This document shows, piece by piece, positions 8,127 to 62,075 of a DNA stretch of 64,000 nucleotides. Position numbers and translations under genes: made by a program. Source of the DNA: Lentinula raphanica (lineage: Eukaryota; Basidiomycota; Agaricomycetes; Agaricales; Omphalotaceae); NCBI GenBank assembly GCA_027919835.1, contig JANVFP010000002.1, positions 1,612,001 to 1,676,000 on the forward strand. Reading direction: 5' to 3'. Positions within the stretch are counted from its first letter, which is position 1, and each line of letters starts with the position of its first letter. The notes beneath the pieces are model-generated. The model did not search any database and had not been told where the DNA came from. It was given only the letters and a program-made list of their open reading frames with translations.

Positions 8127-10700
8127 TTACTGAGATAAGGCTGCATCAAGGAGAGCTGCATAATTTGGAGTCCCAAGACCTGTGACAGGATCCCCTGCAG
8201 AACAACATCAGATTGATTCAAGTTTAGACAAACATGGCTAACATACATCCAGCGTTGGCTGGGAAACCAGATGTTCCACCTGAGCAAATTTCAATGTTAG
8301 GAAAATATTGGCTATGTATTATATAGGTTGACTTACATCCAGGGTTGCTACCTGAAGCAATATCATGAAATGCATGTGAGTTGTTATACAAACTTCAAAT
8401 TGGACAAATCAATGAGAGCCTCAGTATTTTCAATATGAAGAAAGAACACAAACAATGGGTTCAAGAATCCAAGCTGTGATTTCCCAGAAGTAATAAGCCG
8501 GTCATTGATCAAAGCAACCACACTAGCAAATATAGGACTGGAGCATGATGTTCCATAAACCAATGTAGCTGAAGACAAAAATATCAGCACAACATTGAAA
8601 TTCGGAGAATTCAAATGAAGTTTGCATACGTAATTCCCTGGTAATAATTTCAACCTTACTACCTTGTGCAGCAACATCTGGAAAGCCACGTCCTGAAGAA
8701 TTTGTTTAAGTGATATGTGTTTGTTCTGGAACTGCACAAGGTTCACAAATTACCATTGGCGGAAAATTCACTTGCATAAGTGTTGCCAAGATCAGACAGA
8801 TATTTGGCTACAGAGGCATTCTGATATGATGAACGGGTAAAGTAGTTTGAGAATCCACCACTGCTAAACTGAGCAGATGTTTCTTTGCCTATACAGATAT
8901 TGTCAGAACAAGGCCAAAGTGACTAGGTGAAATAGTATACATTCGGAGTTTAACTGGGTAGCACCAACTGATGTTACAAAAGGACAACTAGAAGGAAAGG
9001 TCGGGATGAATGTTGGACCACAGTTGTCTTGACTTTGTGCACCGGATACACCTCCATCACCTAGCCTCCGGAAATGAGTGAGAATAATACACTGCCATAA
9101 GCCATGATCAGAATTCATTAATGGTTATAAAACCTTACCAGAGGCAAAAAGCACTGATACACCTCGTGAGCCAAGAGTCATATAGGCCTTGCATAATTGG
9201 CTTATAAAATAAGTTGAGATCAGAATATATGAGACCACTGAGGTGTAATCACTCAGCCATTTTGAAAGTGATGGCATTTTCATTGAAACCGTAGCTGAAG
9301 GAAGGATGAATGGAAATGCCAATGAGGTTTTGGATTCAGTGTCACCTAGTAGTGAGCACCTATGATGCAGAATACAGGTTAGAGATAGTTGATGGAATGA
9401 AGGTAAGTATATTTACGCTTGGTGGTACTGTTTTGCTGTTCATAGCATTGATGACATCAAGAAAACCTGAAAGGCCATCTGTGTTTTGTTTTCCAACAGA
9501 GATAAAAGTGGTCTTATCAATGAGTGATACCAAGGTCAAATCATTGGACAAATGATGTTGAGAAAGACCTCACCGGTACACCGGTAGCAAGACCAATTGT
9601 ATACTGAATGTCGAGATTCTATGTAGTCATCCCAAATAAGGGTAGCTCTGCATGAGTCATGACACAAGGTGTTGGGTTCATCATGCCCAGCTTACCGCTT
9701 CAATACCAGCTTGCAAGATATCCTGGGGATTTGAGCCACCATCCAGTGTCTGTAATGTGAAAGTAGTGGACAAAGGAATGTCCTGTCTGAAGAGATACAA
9801 GAAGCTCCTTAAATCCGCCTCCTGTGATTCAACAGGTCATGATAAGAATTGTCCATAAATGCAAAACATTCATACCTGAGCATATTGTCCAATGAAACCT
9901 GTCACTCCTAGTGTAGTTGAGCCTTGGGTAGCATTTGTTGGAATCCCATATAGTTTCTGCAAACAAGCGGGGTACATAGCTGCATCACATGGGATGGAAT
10001 CAAGTTCCCAAGACTGAGCTTCAGGAGTATTATTGAAGCTTAGTGTACTGGCTACGGAATTGATACCAGTATGGACGTGATATTGAGGGCCCGCAATGGT
10101 ACCCACAAAATCTGTCGAAGGGTAAATCAAATTGATGTGTTTCTGGAGATCTGTAGGAATGGAGTAAACCAGTGTCCTCATAATCTGGGTCCCAGAGTCT
10201 CCGGTCTTGTTGAAAATCTGATAGTCAGCGTTGAAGAGTGAGTTGACTGTCGAAATAGGAACAGTGAACAAAAGCCAATCGTTGAACGCGCCAGAGGTGG
10301 TGAAGTTATTGATGTCATTCTCGTTCAACCATGCAGCTACAGCGGACACAGTGTCGGGAGATGGGCTCGCAAGGGCTTTTGTCTACAGAGAGTGTAAAGC
10401 CATGTTTCTTTTGGTATGACGGTGCACACGTACCTCGTCATAGCTCAAATGTTGTCCATACAGAGGATTTCCAGGAGTACTGACATCCCAGAATCTACTC
10501 TCGAGAGTAGGTAGGTCATTGGGAGTGAGCGCAATCCTCAAACTGAGAGGAGTATCGGGATCAGGAGCACCAGCGTGGGCAAAATAGTCAGGAAGCTCGC
10601 GCTGGTCGTGTATAGTCATCGCACGACGACTAGAAACACTTGCAGCCATTGTGAAGGCGAGTTCGAAAGACAGCGCAACAAAAGAGAGAAGGCGAATCAT
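8127..10700 (-). CDS. S53 sedolisin, secreted tripeptidyl peptidase (copy A)
   Basis: A serine-carboxyl peptidase acting at acid pH, secreted or vacuolar, releasing tripeptides or cutting proteins. The protein starts MIRLLSFVALSFELAFTMAA (signal peptide). A pro-domain follows (FWDVSTPGNPLYGQHLSYDE and SAVAAWLNENDINN), then the catalytic domain. The catalytic Glu and Asp lie in GIEANLDIQYTIG, the oxyanion Asp in ASGDGGVSGAQSQ, and the nucleophile Ser in VYGTSCSSPIFASV. The C-terminal calcium-site region reads GWDPVTGLGTPNYAALLDA. About 15 exons are needed, all with plausible GT..AG ends; several introns (for example 9066-9147) are AT-rich and poorly conserved against copy B. Despite the fragmented look of the reading frames, every expected motif is present once spliced. 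It is a paralog of the gene at 15333-17752, and the kinesin gene lies between them. Confidence 0.85.
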
Positions 10701-15332: not shown

Positions 15333-17752
15333 TTAAGCTCCCGCGGCAGCCAAAAGACTTGCGAAGTTTGGTGTTCCCAATCCTGTGACAGGATCCCCTT
15401 TGAAAAAACTTCAGTCTAACGCGAAACCCTTGACAGAGAGATCAACTTACATCCAGCTCTAGCCGGGAAACCATTGGTCCCACATCCAGGATTGTCACCA
15501 GTTGTGATATCGAAGAAAGCACTCGGGTTCGCATACAAGCTTAAAAAGTTTCATTAGCTCCCATTCTTGATATATGAGGAAAAGGACATACAATGGGTTC
15601 AAGAAGCCGAGAGGCGATTTGCCAGCAGCGACAAGTTGGTCATTGATCAAAGCAATCACACTAGCGAAGATAGGACTGGCACATGAAGTACCGTCAACGA
15701 GACCCGCTAAAGGACAAGGTAATGAGATTTGGAGCTTGAACAAATATTCTGTCCTACCTGAGCCACCGTCGACGATTTCTACATTGACACCTTGTGCGGC
15801 AACATCAGGGAACGCACGACCTTGAGATTAATTTGAGCGTGTATGGACTTCAGGATCTTGGAGAAAGCAACTAACCAGTGGTTGAGAATTTGCCAGCATT
15901 GGTACTGCCAAGAGCAGTCAGGTAGGTCGCAACAGGTGTGGTTTGATATGATGGACGAGCAAATATATTGGAGAAACCACCGCTGGAGAAAGAGGCAGAA
16001 GTCTCGGTGACATCTGGAAGTATTGTGGGATCAGAATGTATGGAATGGCATAGCAGCGGGAAAATACCTTGCGTTGCACCGACAGATGTCAGGAAGGGGC
16101 AACCGGAGGGGAAGGTGGGGATGAACGTCGAGCAGCTCTGACTTTGACTTCCGGATACACCACCATCACCTTTGGGTCCATGCATCGTGAGTACACACTG
16201 CAATGAATGGTAAAGCTGAGAACTCACCGGATGCGAACAGGATTGATACACCACGAGTACCACTGGTCATATAGGCATTGCAAAGCTGACTGAAAGAGAA
16301 TGTCAGAATCGACGGACTGATAATGATGTTAGTGCGTACTTCGCCATGGCACTGGTAAGATCTGGTTCATCGAAACCATAACTAGAACAAATGAGTAAGC
16401 AGCTGTACTGTCGATACCAGAGCTGATACAGCATACCTGGTTGTAAGAACCTGACAGTCACATATCAGTCAGCAAAAGAAGCATGATTTTTTGCGATGTC
16501 ATACTCACATGAGGAGGGGCAGTTTGAGCATTGATATTGTTCATAATGTCGAGGAAGCCATCGATTCCGTCTGCGTTATTTTCTCCTACGGAGATGAAAG
16601 TAACCTTATCAACAGAACGTTAGTCAAATTATGTGGATGGCGTAGAATCGCTTGATCTTACAGGAACGCCAGTAGCGACACCAACGGTGTATTGGACATC
16701 AAGGTTCTGTACTTCTGTGTTAAACTATCTTTGGTATCAGGAATAGAGTCGATCGCTCACGGCCTCAATTCCGGCATCCCTTGCAGATTGCGGGTCTGAA
16801 CCTCCATCCAGGGTTTGCAACGTGAACGTTGTTGTGGAAGAAATATCGGGCCTGAGGCTACCCAAGAAAGTTCTAAGGTCTGCCGTCTTTAAAGCGTCAG
16901 GAATGATACGAGGGTAGATTGTTCAGAGGTCATCCTACCTGAGGCCATTGATCAATGAAACCGCTCACACCTAACTTGTTAGATGATTGGGTAGCAGCGG
17001 TTGCCGGGATACCGTAGAGGTCTTGCAAACAGGTAGGAGTGACAACCGAATTACATGAGCTAGGTGCCCCGAGTGCTCGTGCAGTGTTGTTGCTCAAGCT
17101 TGAACCCGGTACTGAGGCACGGAATTTGGGTCCTTGGATATTGCGCACGAAATCAGTTGATGGATGGATCAAGTTGATGTGCTGTTGCAAATCCACGGGA
17201 AGGGAGTAGGCCAAAGTCCTGACCAGTTGTGTAGAGCCTCCAATCTCACTGAACGTCTGATAATCAGCGTCAAAGAGAGAGTTGGCGGTTGAAATGGGGA
17301 TGGTGAAAGCGAGCCAATCATCAAAGGCGCCAGTCGTAGTAATGTTGTTGATGCCATTCTCATTCAGCCAGGCAACGACAGCAGACACAGTGTCTTGGGT
17401 AGGAGCCGCAAAGACTTTGGTCTATAAAATGATATGCCAATCAATCCACACAGATATGGAAACTTTAATGACCTCGAGCGCTTACCTCCTCGAAACTCAA
17501 ATGTTGACCGTACAGAGCATTTCCGGGAGTGCTAACATCCCAGAATCTTTGCTCAAGGCCCGCCATGTCGCTCGCAGTGAGCGCAATCTTGAGATTGATA
17601 GGCGTATCTGGGCTTGGTGTACCAGAGTTAGCGAAATGAACTGGGAGCGTCCGCTGCTCGTGAACGGCCATCGCACGACGGGTGGGTATACCAGCCGCCA
17701 TGGAGGATGCAAGCCCAGAGAGGAGAACGGCACAAAACGAAAGGCGAACCAT
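15333..17752 (-). CDS. S53 sedolisin, secreted tripeptidyl peptidase (copy B)
   Basis: Same family and role as the gene at 8127-10700. It starts MVRLSFCAVLLSGLASSMAA (signal peptide) at 17752. The pro-domain has FWDVSTPGNALYGQHLSFEE and SAVVAWLNENGINN. Catalytic Glu and Asp are in GIEANLDVQYTVG, the oxyanion Asp in ASGDGGVSGSQSQ, and the Ser nucleophile in VDGTSCASPIFASVI. The C-terminus is DPVTGLGTPNFASLLAAAGA, with the stop at 15333-15335. Exon borders match copy A almost one for one, including the very short exons around NLDVQYTVGVATGVP, so the pair arose by duplication after the intron pattern was set. Copy B keeps the more typical GTSCASP around the serine (copy A has GTSCSSP). No lesion is seen. 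Confidence 0.9.
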
Positions 17753-22362: not shown

Positions 22363-22373
22363 ACAGGAAGGTT
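22363..22373 (+). repeat. Left copy of 11-bp direct repeat (candidate target-site duplication)
   Basis: acaggaaggtt, exactly repeated at 28424-28434 in the same orientation. It directly abuts the left end of the inverted-repeat-bounded unit (next bases agactg). Confidence 0.7.
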
Positions 22374-22410
22374 AGACTGATTGCAAGGGCTTGAGGGACC
22401 TTCATGGGTC
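22374..22410 (+). repeat. Left terminal inverted repeat of the RecQ/DUF6589 unit
   Basis: Begins agactg directly after the 11-bp direct repeat. Positions 22386-22410 match the reverse complement of 28330-28354 with three substitutions; the first 12 bases match 28366-28355 at 7 of 12. Weaker similarity continues inward for about 20 bp. Confidence 0.7.
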
Positions 22411-22533
22411 CCCCAGTTCAAACTCCGCCATGCTGCCGAAAACGTTCCGTCGTGGGAATCATGCCTTCATTGCAGCGACGCGTTCGCGTCGTTGATTTGT
22501 TTAATCAAATCCTTTCGCTCACGTATTTATTGG

Positions 22534-24867
22534 ATGGTGGAAGACGATTTCTTCCATTGTACTCAGGACTTTTCATCTCCAGAGAATCGCGCTCGGATCC
22601 GGCGACTGATTCGACCTTGTTTCCCTCATGATATCCATGATTACGCTCTGGAAGGAATCTGTAGAGCTTTGGATGGCTTCCATGTCATCTCAGTAGTCAA
22701 GACAGGTGGTGGAAAGACCACTTACTTTTCGGGATTCATGGTAGCGCTTCAGGAGCTCGAGAAACTCCCAGATTCCGATGACTTGAAGCAGTGCTTATGT
22801 CGTCCTATACCCCAGAATGCAATCAGTATTATTGTATATCCTACTAAAGGTTTGGAGGAGGAAATGGTGCGTCTCCTATGTTCAGACATTTTCATCCTGA
22901 CTGACTGTAGCTGAGAACAGGCTCAGACCTTCAATAACTTAGGAATTCCCTCACTAGCAATTAATGAAGACACATTGAAGGCTGCTCGTACCGAGCGCGT
23001 CGATTTGTGGGCTCAGGCCATACAGCCTCACCTCCGGTGCCTGCTTCTCTCTCCAGAACAACTCTCGTCACAATCATTCACTGCCACACTCTCTAATATC
23101 TCGTTCTACTCCCGTATAATTGCCCTTGACGTTGATGAAATCCACTTGATCCTTACATGGGGTGCTCCTGGATTCCGCCTCTCATTTCGTGATATTGGGA
23201 ATGTCCTTATGCGATTACCGCGTTGGACTACCCTCACAGGTGTCACCGCTACCCTTCCCAAGGACACCGACACCAACACTATCATACAAATCCTTGGTTT
23301 GAAACCAGGGTCCTTTGCTTTTTCCCGCCGCTCAAATCGAAGACCTACGCTACAGCTCATCTTCCGCGTGCTCAGACATGGCTTCACAGGGTTGGGCATT
23401 TCCAGACTTTGACTGGGTGATTGCTGGTCGCAGGAAAACCATCATTTACTGCCGCACGATTTCGCTAGCTTTCCGTCTTTTTGTATACCTATGGCACAAG
23501 GACTCTCCATCAAACTCAATAGCCCGACGAAAACGATTCCGATTGTACTGCTCCCTCTATTCTAATCAGTATAATAAAACCTCTCGGGATGTATTCGTGA
23601 ACAATCCGCATTGCCAAGTCCTGATATCAACAGATGCACTCAAAGTTGGTAACGACTTCCCGAATATAGATGATGCCCTTGTCATTGATGCGGAAGATCC
23701 ATCCGACATCCTGCAAAAAGGTGGCCGTGCAGGACGAAGACCACCTTATTCGAATCCCGGTCCTCGTTGTATCTGCTACTTCACACAGTCTACAATGGAA
23801 CGTGCTAAGACAGTTGTTGCGAGTGGGAAGGATGAAGATCTGAATGGCTGTTCTGGAAAGATGACTGTTCACATGGCTCGTCTTCTTACCGCAAAATGCA
23901 TTGTGCGGGAACTCGATGTTCAGTTCGATAATCCCGTTGATGAGGTTCCATGCACCTGCGAGACCTGTGGGAAACTGCCTCCCCCTTCTTCTGATACCAA
24001 CTGTCAGTGCAGTGGTTGCAAGCCTGAGGTCTCCTTACCAGCTCTTCCTCGACAGAACGCTGCATCTCGTCCGGGTCGAGGTATTGTAATGGCCAATCAC
24101 CTCAGCAAAGAGATGCGGAAATATGGTCAACACGCTCTTAAAGAATTTCGTTACCGAATCTGGGAAGAAGCAGAAGAAGCAGAGATGGAATGGTTTCACC
24201 CACTCGGCTTGCTCACTGACACAAGTGTTAACGATATTCTCGATGAATTCTTGAGACTCGAAACCATCGATGATCTCTTGCCCTATGTCAATGAGTTTCT
24301 TCATGGCCATGAACATGCTCTCTTGGAAGAAATCCAGACACTATGGAAGAAGTTTCGCCGAATGAATATTGGATTGGATCCCGATGAGATGTACGTCCCT
24401 ACTCGTTCCACTTGCTAACTCAAATTGATATTGCTATATTGTAGCCCGGTCAATGAAAATCCTCGAAACAACACACAGCTAGTGCCAACGGCATCATACG
24501 ACACATTCTTCTCATCATTACAGGCCTCAGATGTATCCCAGCCTCTACAATCACGGATTGTGCTCAGAGAAAAGTGCGCAGTATTCTATACTTTCTGACC
24601 ATAATCTTCGCTGTACTTAAATGAATTCATTTTGAACAGTCCGGGCGCACCCAGAAAAGCCTCAACAAACGTTGTATCAACGTCAAGCCCTGGAAAACGA
24701 AGCCTTCCCCCCAATGCCCCATCCAAAAGCCCCGCGAAACGTGTCAAAGGGAACAGGCTCCCAGTATGTTATTCACTTTCTATACTTTTTCGCATGCCAA
24801 CGTTTTGAAGGTCAAGACTATCAAAATCAAGGAGAATGTTAGACTCAACATATACCCGTATACCTAA
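22534..24867 (+). pseudogene. RecQ-like DEAD/DEAH helicase with a +1 frameshift
   Basis: A SF2 helicase of the RecQ-like group expanded in Agaricomycetes. The ATG at 22534 (MVEDDFFHCTQD) is the first in frame. Motif I is KTGGGKTT, motif II is DVDEIHLI (DExH) and motif III is GVTATLP; domain 2 has RKTIIYCRT, STDALKVGNDFPNIDDALV and motif VI QKGGRAGRR. A Cys-rich segment follows (CTCETCGKL ... CQCSGC), then a helical tail. Introns are about 22867-22920, 24391-24445, 24575-24640 and 24765-24811; the stop is at 24865-24867. The two helicase domains are in different frames: the upstream frame ends shortly after RVLRHGFTG and the downstream frame takes up at WAFPDFDWV. One extra G in the run 23389-23391 explains it, and no intron can. 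Either the copy is dead or this is a sequence error. Confidence 0.75.
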
Positions 24868-24894
24868 TGCTATTGTGATATAATCTTTCTCGAT

Positions 24895-27800
24895 CTACTC
24901 TTTGTTTTCTTGCTCCGATTCACCAAAGTTGATATCTGAGTCCTGTTCGATTGCACTATCCGGATCGAAGGCAAAACCATCCTTCCTGAGCTGGTCATTA
25001 TTAAGCATCGCCTGCACTGGAGCATCGAAGATATGGATTTCGGTATGTGACATATTCTGATCTTCTAGGTGCTCTGTCGCCTCATTGAGATTTCTGACCC
25101 AGCATGTATCGTGGATCCATTTCTGTAACCGGCCTTGTGCAAGGCTAGCTATACCGCGCCCAAGATCGTCTGTGCGATCCGGATCTGCCTCTCGGTATTG
25201 TCGCCCCTTCCGGAAAAGATGGAGCTCCTCCAGTTGGTAACGCGTTGTCAGTTTCCGAATCTCTGCTATCCGAGATGGCGCTAGATGATTCCCGGCTCGA
25301 TTAGCAAGGCCCAAACTAGCGTGGTGAACCTTCTTTGTCTGCCTGAAGCGATAGACATTCGGTGATAATCGCTCGCGAGTGTGAAAGTTGTCAAAGCCTT
25401 GATCGTGGTTGACGTGCTCATACAGTTCTTCTTGCAGCTGCTCCTGGAATAGATCTCCTGCTTCGAAAGAATGACCGTTTGTACTGATAAGCCAATTCTC
25501 AAAGAAGAAGTCCCTGAGCTGGGGACTTGATTCAAGCTCTAGGTTACAGATCATCTCGAGCAGATACCCTGTATACTTCGTATGTGATGATCCAGCAAAA
25601 GTGAATGTCATCATCTAACTCACACAATTAGGTTATAGATCATATACAATCTCGATATGAACATACCTTCAAACACTCCCAGACACACCCGACATCTCCT
25701 CGATGAATTCCTTCTGTGGCGAGTCGTGAAAGTAATCCATCACAGATGAACTGCGTGGATCTGGCAAGTGTCTCGTCCCCTACAAAAACCTCGTTCTCTG
25801 ATTCTTGGTCTGCCTTTTTGGTCTTCTTCTTTTTGCCTTTGCTCTCACTGGGAAGTCCTATGTTGATCAAGCTTTTGTCGGTCCTTGGAACCTTCCATTC
25901 ACTGCCTTCTTTATAACCAGTGCCATGCCTCATCAACTTCGTGAATGCTTTTGGTGACCCAAATCTGTGGTGAAGGCTCACGGCAACTTTATGTAAGTCA
26001 TCGAAAGATGGGAACTGTCTGGTTTCTGAGAGCATCTTCAGATGCTCGAGTAGATCGTCTGCATCAAATTCCATTCTATCACAAAGTCAATGATGCTTAC
26101 ATTTCGAACACAAAGCAAACGAACCTCCAGATATCCAAAACACGGGCTTCGACTTGTGTTTCTAGCAAGTCCATGTATCGATAATAGTCAACTTTACTGA
26201 CATTGCCTGGTGCTTTGCGTTTCAAGGTGTTGGCTCCAAAACCGAGCGTCGATGGATCAGCGCTAGTAAGTCCAACCCAGTGAGCCTCATATATCCGGCT
26301 GAGATTTGTCCAGACAGTGTGCCAAACTTCGAGAAAGGGTTCAAGCAACTCCATGCGTTCAAACTCGTTCTCTTGGAATTGAAGGTAATTCTTCAGTTGA
26401 ACCATCCTTTCGTAACTGAGCCCATCTCCGCCTGCCAGAATCAAGCGCTTGACAAAGTTATTGGGTGACTGTCCGAGTTGTGCGAAGAAGTCCTTCAATG
26501 CCTTCAGCAATTCCGATGTTGTTGTTTCGTTGTAGCCGTTTGACTTTAATGGATATATCTGATTCTTTCGCGGTGAGACTTTTGATTTAGTGCCGATCTC
26601 TTCATATGTTTTCCGAAGGGAAGCTGAATATTCCTGAACATTTGGGATGTTCATTGTGTAATCGAATAGGATATCTAGCCACAGCAAAGGAAGAGCGTTG
26701 TTCAGGAAGGGGTGATCTACTAGCTTCCAGAGTGCCGGAAAGGTCAATGTTGAACGTAAGTCCTTCTTCAACCATTCACGCTTTTTCTCAAGGCTGAGAG
26801 CATCACCAAGCTTGCCCTCTGCCTTGACGTATGTTCCAGCACACCCAATCATCATGCGCGCTTCGCGTCCAATCCGTTCAAATCGCGCGTGGACTTGCTT
26901 TTGCATATTGTCGAATCTGAGTACACCAGACTCGTCTGTGCTACGAGCGATCTTCAGTATTGCTTGATGGTCAGCTTTGGCATATCGATCAAGTGCGTCA
27001 AGTACTGTTGTGTAATTTGTCAATGCACCAATACGTGATTCGTGATCGAACAAGTAACGGTTGGCACCACAGGCAAATAGAAGCAGACCTTTCTCTGCAG
27101 GTAAGAGGTTCGCATTCCGATTCTTCGAGAATAACAGAGATGATATAGCATATGTAGCAACCTAATACACAAAGATCAAGTTTCTTGGAACATGTTTGCA
27201 CTGGGGACAATCGACTCACAGTTTCAGGTGGGCGATAATTTCTTGATATGGCGCGCGTACCAGCAGGTGCATCCTTCGCGCGACTGACTCGGTTTCGACT
27301 CTGAGGAGTTGCCAACATTACGCAATAGTGCCACAGTAAGGGATGTCCAACACGGAGCAGATTTTGTGCAGTATGAAATGTCTCTGCACCAAATGTTTGC
27401 TCGTTGGATGAAGATTCCGGCACATCAGATTTTGAAGTATGTAGACCACCTTCAGGCGACGACAGCTCATTGAACTTTTCCAATAGGTGCTCTGCCACAA
27501 GCTGTGCAGCGAAAGACGTGAGAGCAGGACGTGCATGCCGAATCCTTTCAAAAGGAGTGGTGACAGAAAACATCAAATCTCGCTCATCTACTTCAGTCTG
27601 GCCTGGTTCAAGACCATCTGTCTCTAGCTCTTCATTTCCTGAACCACATCTGTTTGACCGAGGAAGTCCCATGGGATGAATGACCCACTCTTTCAGGATG
27701 CGCGCCAGTGGATATTTGGGATCCTTGCCCCTTCCCATGAAGAGGGAGAGTTCATGGGCATGTTTGCGAGAGCGTCCTTGGATTTCAGATCCATCTTGAT

Positions 27801-28203
27801 CTCTGACCCGAGAGAAATAGTAAAGAAACTCTCCCACTGTCCACGACTCCTCACTTATCACACGAAGGATATTCTCCAGCTTGATAGCAACAGGATCGGT
27901 AATAGTTGACCCTTTGCCAAATCCAGTGCGCGAAGATGGTTTCCGTGAAGAAGGATAGTTGATTGACATTGGACTCGGAGTGGATGGAGTATGAGATGGC
28001 TGAGACTGGTGAGGGTATGGACCCAGAGGATTGAGCGTATACATCAGGATAGGTTGCATCAATGGAGGGGGGATAGGGTAATGCGGCATGTAAGGTGTTA
28101 CTGGTGTTGATACACTTCCAGGTGTACAGGAATGTATTGGAAGAGTATTTTCTTCGGTGTCTTCGGTGTCTTCGTTGTCTGACATTGAACTTCTGGTGCT
28201 CAT
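24895..28203 (-). CDS. DUF6589-domain protein, intact, 1,049 residues
   Basis: Four exons (introns 25615-25666, 26076-26124, 27162-27219). Residues 1-90 are Pro/Ser-rich and low-complexity. The next 200 include KLENILRVISEESWTVGEF and ARPALTSFAAQLVAEHLLEK. The conserved core, which I recall as DUF6589, includes RFDNMQKQVHARFERIGREA, FVKRLILAGGDGLSYERM, LEPFLEVWHTVWTNLSRIYE, AHWVGLT, FTFAGSSHTKYTGYLLEM and RGIASLAQGRLQKWIHDTCW; it ends in an acidic tail. No function is established for this family to my knowledge. Invariant acidic residues (the Asp in AGGDGLS, Glu in EVWHT and YEAHW) could form a nuclease or transposase-type active site, but that is only an inference. It faces the RecQ-like helicase, 27 bp from its stop, inside inverted repeats. 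In contrast to the helicase the frame is undamaged. Confidence 0.8.
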
Positions 28204-28329
28204 AAATGAAACGCACAAAATACTGCAATTTTTTCGTGCAAAAGCATAGAACTCATAGGGATCGGTATTATGTCATCGATATTACATGAGCGGCAATGCA
28301 ACGGCTTCAAGGTGGACTTTCAAATCTTT

Positions 28330-28366
28330 GACCCATGAGGGTCCTTCGAGCCCTAGCCACCAGGCT
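28330..28366 (-). repeat. Right terminal inverted repeat of the RecQ/DUF6589 unit (inner copy)
   Basis: Reverse complement of the left terminal repeat as described at 22374-22410. Outside it lies a 57-bp segment (28367-28423) that ends in a second, partial copy of the terminal sequence (ctagccaggct against ctagccaccaggct) and contains an 8-bp hairpin (ttcacaaa ... tttgtgaa). Confidence 0.65.
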
Positions 28367-28423
28367 TATTTCACAAACGAGTTTACTCTTTTTTTTGTGA
28401 ACATCAAGACGGCTAGCCAGGCT

Positions 28424-28434
28424 ACAGGAAGGTT
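28424..28434 (+). repeat. Right copy of 11-bp direct repeat (candidate target-site duplication)
   Basis: acaggaaggtt, identical to 22363-22373. It directly follows the terminal sequence ccaggct. Confidence 0.7.
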
Positions 28435-28624: not shown

Positions 28625-30411
28625 CTAATTCAAAGCACCTTTTGCGGTATCTTCAATCTTCTCCTCTATCTCCTGTACCTTTTCTTCGACTTTCTGCACC
28701 TTCTCCACTACCTTCCCAACTCCTCTCTGAGCCCTGACCATCCCAAAGCCCCAACTGAACCCGAAACTGACCCCGGCACCGTCAGATCTGATATGATTAT
28801 CCGAACGATTGAATGCTCCTTGTTCCCATCTCTCAGTCTCCTTCTCGTGTGCATCCCACGTCTTCCATAGACCTTCTAGCGTCGTGTATTTCGGCTTATA
28901 CCCCAAACCACCCAGATAAGGGTCTAGCCTCGCTCTTGAATCATCGAATATAAGATGTACCATGGTAAGATTGAACAAAGACGGTTGGAGGTTCACTAGA
29001 TCCTTGTTCACGGATGGTAGAAACGAGAGTTTCAGTTGATGGCGGAGAAGATAATACACCTCGATGATGTATGCCAAGATGAGCATAAGCGTGGGGGATA
29101 TTTCTGGGAAGAACGTCTGGCCATTGGTGAGAGTTTCGAGTGTGACATAGACGTCTCCGTAGGTAGGAGGGGGACCAGGATCAGCGATTGTGAATGCTTG
29201 GCCCCCGATATCTGGGAGACGAGCTAGTGAAGAATCACTCCGGTTTCGTTCTTGTTCCTCCACTTCAATCAGCCTCTTCTCGTAGCACAAATGCGCGTTC
29301 GCGCAATTCTCTACATAAACGAAGTGGGAGACAATATTCGATATCCACGTCGGGTTTGTCTTGCGTACAAGATAGGCCCCGCATAGCATGTCTCCGCCTG
29401 GACCAAAGACACCGTTACCAGGTCGGATACAGCCCGTACGGAGACGACGACGGAGAGATGTGGTTTCTGTCTGTACAGTGGCGTTTGACTTCGGAAGAGA
29501 CTGGGCTTTATCTGCCTCCCGAACGCGCTTCTCCGCCAAAAATTTGGAGTACGCGTAATTTGAGAAAAACTGGGAATGTTTCGTTGGCATTGACGGGCTA
29601 TCGTCGTCGTCGTTTAGACATTGTACGAAATTCTCCGGCTCTGCCTCCCAAGGCCAGAGTAAGAACCTCGATGCACGGACACCCACAGAGCCGGAGGAGG
29701 TGTATATCAGAATAGTCGAATCTGAATGATTAGAATCCGAACGAGTAGCGGACGCGTCTATTTCGAGCGCAGCATCGATAACATTCTGTGTGCCGTCCAC
29801 GTTGACTCTGGTAGAATTCGGAAGAAGCCCAGACGAGCGTTCGTAGAAACGGATGTTGGCTGCAGTATGAAAGACAGTCGTGGGTATATGCTCCGATGAA
29901 GTTGAGCTTCCTGGCCATTCAGCCTTGAACGCCTTCATGACAGCTTCTCTATCGCTGATATCCACCACCATATACTGAACATCTTTGCCTATTCCGTACT
30001 TCAGATCGTGTCTGGCTGGTAAGCGGATATCGATAACACGGATGTTCTTGGGGTTTTCTCCACGCTGTAGAAGTTGAACGACTATCCAGCCTCCGAGGAA
30101 TCCAGCCTGGGAGGTGATCGGGATGAACTTCAAAAGTTGTAAATGGTTTCGATCTAAAGTTTGCTCACTCCTCCGACAACAATATATCTCCTACCCGTCT
30201 TTTCCGTTTCACCTTTGTCCTCCTCGTTTCTCTCACTCATCCGTTCCTTGAGTTCCGCCACATCTTCCTCTGTAACCCTTCTCGGGGACACCTTCAACGC
30301 TCTCTCGGGTATACTCCAGAGTTTTCTGTCATTGATTCGGACATATGTATACAAGCCAGCAATAAGGGTGACAAGGAGTGCGCAGAGAGACCAGCTCATG
30401 CCAGCCAGCAA
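28625..30411 (-). CDS. Membrane-anchored extended SDR, 3-beta-HSD / sterol C4 dehydrogenase type
   Basis: An NAD(P)-dependent oxidoreductase of the 3-beta-hydroxysteroid dehydrogenase / sterol-4-carboxylate 3-dehydrogenase class. Two exons (intron 30107-30168). Residues 1-23 (MLAGMSWSLCALLVTLIAGLYTY) form a membrane anchor. The Rossmann signature VVGGAGFLGG spans the splice site. VFHTAANIRFYE and the catalytic YAYSKFLAEK (YxxxK) follow, then RPGNGVFGPGGDM and HFVYVENCANAHL. A hydrophobic segment (LILAYIIEVYYLLRHQLKL) precedes a C-terminal coiled coil rich in VEEKVQEIEEKIED. The C-terminal helix and Asn/Ser-rich inserts make it longer than typical ERG26, so substrate is uncertain: ergosterol-like C4 demethylation is possible but other hydroxysteroids or polyketides are not excluded. 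No damage is seen. Confidence 0.8.
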
Positions 30412-53293: not shown

Positions 53294-53335
53294 TATGACA
53301 TGAAATAATTACATAATGTTCAGGTGCTCCTGCAC
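53294..53335 (+). repeat. Left terminal inverted repeat of the KDZ element
   Basis: Holds tatgacatg at its outer end and gttcaggtgctcctgcac at its inner end. Pairs with 61809-61850 at 34 of 42 positions. The preceding 50 bp separate it from the broken end of the RdRP-helicase frame. Confidence 0.8.
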
Positions 53336-53494: not shown

Positions 53495-56019
53495 TTATTC
53501 ATCATCATCAGAAAACATATCTTCATCGTCTTCGCCACTGCTAGAGCTGGAGCTCGATTGAGCCTCCTCCTCATCGCTGTCAACGATGAATGCTCTGCTC
53601 TTCCCCTTTGAACTTCCCTTAACCTTGCCCTTACCCTTCCCTTTCTCTGACCTAGCCGACGTCTTCGACAATTTTGGCTTACTAGACTTCTGCGAAGAGG
53701 CCTTCTTCGAGCGCTCACCCTTCTTCGAGCTCTCACCCTTCTTCGAGCTCTCACCCTTCTTTGAGCTCTCACCCTTCTTTGAGCTCTCACCCTTCTTTGA
53801 GCGCTCACCCATCTTTCCGGCTGGCTCACTGCGTTTCCCTGTCCGTGCTGACTTGCTTTTCTTCGAGGGTCGAGGTTGGTCACTATCATTCACGTCATCG
53901 TCGGAATCATTGGCGCGACGCTTGTTGTGTGTCTTTCCAGCATCGCTGCGTTGGGGGCGGGGTTGTGGATCAAGCTTTCCACTCTTCTCCAGTTCAGTAA
54001 GATAACGACGGTGTTCAAAAGCAGCCATCCTTTGCCAGTGGGTGATACCGCTGGTGAGAGAGTCAAACAACGTTTTGATTTCTTCAGCGTGAAGCTTGTG
54101 GGGATAGCTGAAGGGGACCTCCTCTGGCCATCCAAAGAGTTTGACCTTGTAGGGAATCACGATGAGTTTGTCGTACTTGTTGTAGCTCATCGCAAGGTTG
54201 GATACGCCAGTAATTTCACCTTGAAACAAAGTGCTAATGTCAATATCCTTAGCCGAAAGAGCGGTGACATACTCACGAAGTCCCTGGGCTATCAAGCGAA
54301 CAATTTCAGTCAGCATTTCTGATTGGTACAGCTTTCGGGTCCCCACTGCAAATCGATGAGAAGTCTGACTATCTCAAGTTAATCAGATACATACTTTTCT
54401 CAGCAGTACAGACATAGGCTTGAAATAAATCAAGAACATCCTGTACGCCCTTGTTAAACGTCTTTCGGAAGAATTCGTCAACAGGGCCATGTCCCCAGAA
54501 TGACGAAGTGACCGTGGACTCAAAACTGCCACGAACAATGAGGCCAAAGCTGGCTACCTCCGCTGCTTCAGCCATAAAGGTTGCCTGGCATTGAGATCAA
54601 CAAAAGGCAGCTCAATGCTCAATTATAAAACTCACATTTTCCTGAAGCTCATTAATTTTGGATGCGACCATCCTTGCCTGTGCGGTTTTGCTGATCCGAA
54701 TGGACTTGAGCTTTTTCTCCTCCTGGTATTGATCATACCGCTCTCGAAGCTCGGCCATGGCATCTGAATCCTCAGCCATCTCCTGAAGGTCGCCATCCTC
54801 TTTCACAAGCTCATGTAGACGTTTGAGCGGCTCCCGAGAGCCCTTTGCACGGCCTGAAGATACGATCATGAAAATGAACAACGATCTTGAGTATGAGAAA
54901 CACACCAGCGTTCACTTCTTGAGATTTGATGAACACAAGGACGTTGTGGTCACTTGCCTTCTTCTTCTTGGATGACTGCGTTGTATGATATACCAGACGC
55001 TTGACTCGCTGAACAGAGATATCATTATCCTCCGCAATCTTGGCTATCGCTGATTCTTGCATCTGGTGAAACTCCTCAAGATCAGCATTCAACTTCTCCG
55101 CGCGCGCAGCTGACGCTTTGCGATACGCAGCCCTTTCTGCTGGACCCATTTCTGAGCGCTTTTTTTTGGGAGGAGGGACAGGAGGGACATCCGATCCAGC
55201 CACAGAGTTGCCGCTAGCAGGCAGGCCATTAGATTCAGTGAGAGCTGCTGAAGGGCCGAGAGTCTGGCTGGCCGACGACTGGGCAGTATCAACGGCGACT
55301 GGGGGAGCAGAGGAAGAGCTAGAGGTTTGTCCATTGATGCCAGCAGATGGCTGAACGGCGACGCTAGAAGACGAAGAATCTTTATCCTCAAGAGCCAGCG
55401 ATGAGCCAACAGTCTGCCCATCCTTGGTGGCAGACGAACAGACGACATCAACACCAGCAAGCTGATGATCGGTGTTGCCAGGAATTAGGGAAGATGCGGA
55501 AGTTTGGCAGTTGCTACTGTCAGGCGAACAAACAGCGTTGGTGCTGGTGGGCAATTGATTGGCATGACCAGAGCCTAAGGAGGGCATGAACGTCTGATTG
55601 TTGCTGTCGAATGTCTGATCAGCGCCTTGCTGATTAGCCTGGGTGGAAACGTTGGCGGAATCGGGAGTGGCTCCAGAGCTGCCCTGATTGCTGCTGTCGA
55701 ATGAGCGAGCGGCGCCTTGCTGATTAGCCTGGGTAGAAGCGCTGGCGGAAGCGGGAGTGGCTCCAGAGCTGCCATTGCTTCCAAACAAGAACGAGCTCAT
55801 TGAGCTCTGTGCCGGTGCATAGTTTGGACGCGGAAAATTTGGAGGTGGATAGGCAGCTAATAAACAAAAATCTGAGTCAAAGACATGCTCAATTCAGAGC
55901 ACCAAATGCTCACAGATCAATGCAGAGGTTTGTGTCGATGGCGGGGGCTGTAGCTGCGCCTCAGGTTCTACAGGATGGCCCACAACCGGCTCCTGGAACT
56001 GAAAGTGAACATTGGGCAT
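53495..56019 (-). CDS. KDZ-associated partner protein, unknown function
   Basis: Five or so exons; start MPNVHFQFQEPVVGHPVEPE at 56019, stop 53495-53497. Order: a proline-rich N-terminus; two near-identical repeats of about 30 residues (SSGATP[AD]SA ... FDS[SN]NQ) at about 55600-55780; Ser/Pro-rich region; a basic stretch (PPPKKKRSEMGPAERAAYRK) that may be a nuclear signal; a helical core (REPLKRLHELVKEDGDLQEM, EVASFGLIVRGSFESTVTSS, KLFGWPEEVPFSYPHKL, GITHWQRMAAFEHRRYL); then a Lys/Ser/Glu repeat tail and an acidic end. I recall the core (GWPxxVPF with a DVV or KLI segment before it) from hypothetical proteins found next to KDZ transposases in mushrooms. Role unknown: chromatin or DNA binding is only a guess from charge. 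Confidence 0.6.
53715..53804. repeat. 18-bp tandem repeat, five full units
   Basis: Unit tcacccttctt[ct]gagc[gt]c repeats in frame and encodes KKGESS or KKGERS on the minus strand. Variation is in silent or near-silent positions (c/t in the Lys codon region), so the array has diverged little and may vary in copy number between strains. Part-units flank both ends. Confidence 0.85.
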
Positions 56020-61721: not shown

Positions 61722-62075
61722 ATTCTGAATATGTATCTACTATATAGCTATAACATCTCAACCATTGTGGTTCAAAGAGCAAAGAGTGTGAACATTATTG
61801 ATGGCGGTGTGCAGGAGCACCTGAACAACCTGTGATCACCACATGTCATAATCTCTCTAAGAGAACCCTATTTTACCCTAAGTTGACCTCCCTTTACCCA
61901 CTAATCGTGACTTGACCTTATCCACTTCTGCACAAGGCATTGTACATACGGTACACCGCTTCTGTATAAGCTTGCTTTAGGGCTGTACAGGTGGGATGAT
62001 ACGTTCCGACTACATACTTTTTCCCATACCTCCTTGGATCTCTCTGGTCTCATCGTTATCTTCGAAATATTCTCG
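61722..62075. other. Right end of the KDZ element and promoter of the dehydrogenase gene
   Basis: Contains the right terminal inverted repeat (61809-61850). Outside it, 61851-62075, I find no remainder of the SF1 helicase (no TQYRM, no motif V or VI), so the lost part of that gene is not simply on the far side of the element. Confidence 0.6.
61809..61850 (-). repeat. Right terminal inverted repeat of the KDZ element
   Basis: Core gtgcaggagcacctgaac at 61809-61826 is the exact reverse complement of the left core; catgtcata at 61842-61850 pairs with the left outer block. Confidence 0.8.

Follow-up and report, generated by a model that had tools for sequence, protein, structure and literature searches.

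A two-gene DNA transposon with a RecQ-like helicase and a probable DUF6589 transposase in Lentinula raphanica, most likely of the AcademH type

In the genome of Lentinula raphanica, a shiitake relative, a helicase gene and a gene encoding a DUF6589 protein (PF20231) face each other between repeated ends, which raises the question of whether the two genes form a mobile element and, if so, which of them moves it. The locus lies within a window of 64,000 nucleotides, C2:1612001-1676000 of a genome of 75 contigs and 49 Mb; C-numbers denote these contigs, and positions without one are those of the window. An earlier note, made from the sequence alone, had described stretch 22363-28434 as a candidate new transposon class, bounded by inverted ends and an 11-bp target duplication. 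The stretch is a real, well-bounded DNA transposon, and a two-gene element of the AcademH type with DUF6589 as its DDE transposase is very likely the right explanation. Its borders are as follows.

22373..28424, no strand: whole transposon, 6052 bp, TAGACTG...CCAGGCTA; ends set by other copies with the same ends
22364..22372, plus strand: left 9-bp target site duplication, CAGGAAGGT, from comparison with other copies; an unoccupied relative of the site has it once, as CAGAAAGGT
28425..28433, plus strand: right 9-bp target site duplication, CAGGAAGGT, from comparison with other copies
22386..22410, plus strand: left subterminal inverted repeat, a candidate transposase binding site, 22/25 identical to the right arm
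28330..28354, minus strand: right subterminal inverted repeat, placed by its match to the left arm

The 11-mer ACAGGAAGGTT is indeed present exactly at both 22363-22373 and 28424-28434, but the true duplication is 9 bp long. The T at 22373 and the A at 28424 are the end bases of the element itself, by chance equal to the neighbouring host bases. An 11-bp duplication was rejected because, among 14 other copies in which both ends could be placed, 13 start with TAG at the left and all 14 end with CTA at the right, beside different flanks. The window element ends in a short, imperfect terminal repeat (TAGACTG / TAGCCTG). The inverted match between 22386-22410 and the reverse complement of 28330-28354, which the note had taken for the ends, holds at 22 of 25 positions; when the two 110-bp ends were shuffled 200 times, no shuffle exceeded 18. 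The repeat is subterminal, its right arm lying 70 bp inside the right end.

A genome search with the window element returned many loci sharing its ends only. Twenty such short-copy loci with matching ends were taken, and both ends were placed in the 14 mentioned above; in the other six (L047, L049, L054, L055, L056 and L058) no left end was found with this query. Thirteen of the 14 carry a 9-bp direct repeat of their own, different in sequence at each site; 12 of these repeats are exact, and that of L041 has one mismatch. L046 has both ends, the left one altered, and no duplication. The copies with common ends span 555-597 bp. Seven of them (L039-L045, 555-567 bp) form a first family, in which L043 is matched over its full length by the other six at 88-98%, as non-autonomous derivatives would be. 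A second family comprises six copies of 578-597 bp that start with TAGCCTGG.

Thirty matches are confined to the right end, of which they cover about the last 40-90 bases (C19, C12, C9, C4:87804, C51, C42 and others). Six of these are the second short family, and the remaining 24 suggest that additional families of short elements use the same right end. At L056 (C8:99500-102000) two right-end-like sequences with the same orientation are separated by about 80 bp.

Inside the window element, PF00271 (Helicase_C) on the plus strand and PF20231 on the minus strand are convergent, in agreement with the two facing genes first reported. The spacing of 27 bp given in the note for their stops depends on how the last exon of the helicase is drawn.

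22534..24867, plus strand: RecQ-type superfamily II helicase gene, outer limits approximate, with a frame change near 23381-23391
23429..23737, plus strand: Helicase_C domain (PF00271)
24895..28185, minus strand: DUF6589 gene, presumed transposase, 1043 aa; splice model with four exons, 28185-27220, 27161-26125, 26075-25667 and 25614-24895, exon coordinates by arithmetic

Is this pairing peculiar to the window? Genome-wide, 37 DUF6589 matches correspond to 18 loci by our grouping, and 15 of the 18 have a facing Helicase_C match within about 4 kb, the exceptions being C21, C14 and a fragment on C72. Given that the 49 Mb hold 90 Helicase_C matches, we estimate that fewer than one such pairing would be expected by chance. 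The earlier note's proposal of RecQ as the partner of DUF6589 is thereby supported, the helicase being RecQ-type in the loci checked; of the 17 other loci, 14 have the facing helicase and three do not, and the refuting conditions named in the note came out mostly in its favour. The ends were looked at in nine of the 18 loci, and eight elements, the window's included, were delimited, seven with exact 9-bp duplications and one with 8 bp.

The nearest relative of the window element, here called C2rel (C2:1565468-1571553), lies about 63 kb upstream of it, edge to edge, and is 68% identical in DNA where aligned. It has similar ends and, in an automated scan, its own 9-bp duplication CACGCCTTC; beside the true pair the scan gave one chance 8-bp pair, as it did in the window element. 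A second group consists of C26, C5, C27 and C7. In the stretches first taken, the scan found no convincing pair (three chance 8-bp pairs in C5, and in C27 and C7 one mismatched pair that proved internal), and for C26, C5 and C27 these stretches did not reach one of the ends. Longer stretches were then aligned with each other, and the borders were set at the points where the elements cease to resemble one another. Three of the four have TAGTCT ends; their duplications are GTGCTGAGG, CAAATTTGT and, at 8 bp, TGTATTCC. The single sites of C26 and C5 are also compatible with shifted borders and repeats of 8-10 bp, and 9 bp was chosen because it yields the common TAGTCT...AGACTA ends. The element on C7, 99% identical to that on C27, is incomplete: its right end, looked for only as GAGACTA, was not found in 501 bp. 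The third group, with the end CAGACTCC, is represented by C13, which has a 189-bp perfect inverted repeat and the duplication ATGCTATAT, and by two further copies, whose border stretches were picked from the C13 geometry and which show the same ends and exact 9-bp duplications TACCTGTGC and GGAGTTACG. Across the three groups, which differ in their ends, the DUF6589 proteins are 16-35% identical to that of the window.

A related helicase (29% identical) occurs at C13:830687-831379 with no DUF6589 match nearby, possibly a remnant or a host gene. In P0116, a protein of Paramarasmius palmivorus, DEAD, Helicase_C and DUF6589 lie within one gene model.

Joined flanks were made for 19 insertion sites, ten of which were searched in the genome, and 40 of the 101 candidates were scored. 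Matches across the joint were found for six of the ten sites, that of the window included; among the candidates scored there was none for C5, C27, C13 and L040. Among these matches, C26 accounts for three at 96-97% and the short copy L039 for one at 97%. In 11 joint alignments the 9-base target is exact in six, has one mismatch in two (the window's and L075) and two to four mismatches in three (L079-L081). For the window site, 214 of 215 aligned bases are shared with its relative at C11:364477, which holds a single target copy with one mismatch (CAGAAAGGT); in this locus (L072, C11:364350-364870) about 58 additional bases begin ten bases to the right of the target. Rather than alleles, the unoccupied relatives are most likely further copies of the repeats that the elements had entered. 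The empty site that the note proposed to look for is represented here by such a relative with one target copy. Together with the common ends and separate duplications of the other copies, the unoccupied relatives bear out the claim of a bounded transposon. That chance repeats merely surround two ordinary genes is a reading with a probability close to nil and nothing in its favour beyond its prior; it is refuted by these relatives and by 21 duplications of different sequence (seven exact 9-bp and one 8-bp in large elements, 12 exact and one mismatched in short copies).

Which protein, then, cuts and joins the ends? Three acidic residues are conserved in DUF6589 proteins and are candidates for a catalytic triad. 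They are numbered on P0001, a Lentinula raphanica database protein 100% identical over the 671-aa query region.

26910..26912, minus strand: candidate catalytic D1, DN motif, P0001 D235, from conservation; coordinate by arithmetic
26424..26426, minus strand: candidate catalytic D2, GGDG motif, P0001 D397, from conservation; coordinate by arithmetic
25441..25443, minus strand: candidate catalytic E, QE motif, P0001 E691, from conservation; coordinate by arithmetic

In a VIA structure ranking of the predicted DUF6589 fold, the first 30 rows are transposases or RAG1. Two points limit the weight of this ranking: VIA carries a warning on helical models, and plain Foldseek gave no match at E up to 0.001 (best E 0.21). 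A DUF6589 sequence profile gave no match against the PDB at E up to 1. The predicted fold ranks, with moderate support, nearest to DDE transposases, and DUF6589 is probably a DDD/E transposase with an RNase-H fold. The conserved D-D-E and the transposase-like model support the role proposed in the earlier note; they do not prove it. The four-exon model keeps the reading frame open, and in a 310-codon exon the window element and C2rel differ at 27, 19 and 58% of codon positions 1, 2 and 3, a pattern of protein-level selection on DUF6589. In the literature searched the name DUF6589 does not occur and the single PF20231 match is an optics paper; naming DUF6589 as the transposase is possibly new.

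Alternatively, a transposase from another locus might move DUF6589 and the helicase as cargo or host genes. The short copies have the same ends, and therefore these ends can be mobilised in trans. The gene pair recurs, however, inside bounded elements of three groups with different ends and strongly diverged DUF6589 proteins, no other transposase domain was found in the seven open reading frames scanned of the window element, and the modelled fold ranks with transposases, which leaves the cargo reading improbable. With DUF6589 as the transposase, the protein would bind the subterminal inverted repeats and cut the element at TAG.../...CTA; it would then join the ends to a target whose two strands are cut 9 bases apart, and gap repair would leave the 9-bp duplication.

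The helicase would be accessory, most likely unwinding the ends or helping to process or repair the transposition product. It appears to be a RecQ-like member of superfamily II, with scores against RecQ models that lie below the curated cut-offs. The helicases of C2rel, C26 and C13 match TIGR00614 and TIGR01389, all well under those cut-offs, and that of the window matches TIGR00614 only, weakly (E 5e-4) and again well under the cut-off. For the C26 helicase other helicase models score nearly as high as the RecQ models; that of C2rel matches human BLM (E 5e-10). Relative to the C2rel helicase (C2:1566-1568 kb), the frame of the window copy shifts near 23381-23391, which may be an inactivating mutation, so that the window copy may depend on the helicase of another copy, or an error in the assembly.

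Does the element belong to a known group? AcademH, of the Academ superfamily, goes back to Kojima (2020, Mob DNA 11:15), according to citing papers. Marasmius oreades, mentioned below, belongs to the same suborder as the host. PMC10045372 gives 9- or 10-bp duplications for AcademH and 3- or 4-bp for AcademX, and relates these to helicase and nuclease; AcademH is present in Basidiomycota, Ascomycota and Mucoromycota according to PMC10799480. Most fungal Academ copies have recognisable domains, such as PF00270 and recQ_fam (PMC6416283). AcademH is described as combining a helicase beside a DDD/E transposase with 9-10-bp duplications, in Basidiomycota among others. Here a RecQ-type helicase stands beside a probable DDD/E transposase, and duplications are 9 bp in seven of eight large elements and 13 of 14 two-ended short copies, the 8-bp duplication in one of the eight being a difference. 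Terminal inverted repeats are likewise present, short and subterminal in the window element and perfect over 189 bp in C13. As helicase, duplication length and host match closely, the element is most likely of the AcademH type, a group known here by description rather than by comparison of transposase sequences. The claim of a new transposon class is therefore not supported, AcademH having been described already with helicase and 9-10-bp duplications, Basidiomycota included (PMC10045372, PMC10799480).

Unlike AcademX, which shares its superfamily by name and for which 3-4-bp duplications and a nuclease are described, the window element combines 9-bp duplications with a helicase, and no nuclease domain was found in the seven open reading frames; AcademX was rejected on both counts. 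An AcademX-like nuclease domain was also absent among the DUF6589 homologue matches listed, and no literature match was found on Academ with XPG and a transposase.

The elements could also form a separate superfamily, like AcademH in helicase and duplication length but with a transposase that is not Academ; DUF6589 (PF20231) would then serve a mushroom-wide, RecQ-carrying superfamily without description in print. DUF6589 is not named in the literature searched, and the source-named matches listed by three protein searches, which reach only exact-word relatives and of which two scored a capped set, all come from genera that we take to belong to the class Agaricomycetes. An XPG nuclease domain, as AcademX might have, is in none of the matches listed. 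Against this stand the agreement of helicase, duplication length and host range with the descriptions of AcademH and the putative non-autonomous Academ elements reported as widespread in Marasmius oreades (PMC8290104); we regard a separate superfamily as unlikely in both forms.

Kolobok transposons target TTAA. KolobokH, another fungal group with a RecQ helicase, invites comparison, since according to PMC9587614 it has a RecQ helicase, found only in fungi, and one red-alga Kolobok has RecQ on the complementary strand, as in the window element. In KolobokH, however, RecQ lies downstream of the transposase domain (same source), whereas here it is a separate convergent gene on the opposite strand, and the 9-bp duplications vary in sequence, with no TTAA target. 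KolobokH was rejected on these grounds, and a Kolobok lineage, contradicted by the 9 bp, is very improbable. The hAT (Hermes) and P element transposases are about 9% identical to DUF6589; these families make 8-bp duplications and, to our knowledge, lack a helicase.

With DUF6589 as the transposase, a Pfam family so far without a known function, and with 18 loci in this genome, would gain a likely one. Many mushroom genomes list DUF6589 members as hypothetical proteins, and their function bears on gene counts. Large elements, short derivatives and unoccupied targets in one genome offer a system for asking why some DNA transposons carry a RecQ-type helicase.

Elsewhere in the window, the neighbouring gene (28628-30133, minus strand) encodes a 3-beta-HSD/NAD-dependent epimerase family protein, and a tandem array of 18-bp repeats occupies 53683-53826. 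Diverged direct repeats (71-79%) at 8140-8560 and 15343-15698, 7.1-7.2 kb apart, perhaps represent a gene duplication. A 42-bp inverted repeat (81%) at 53294-53335 and 61809-61850, 8.5 kb apart, could be the ends of another element.
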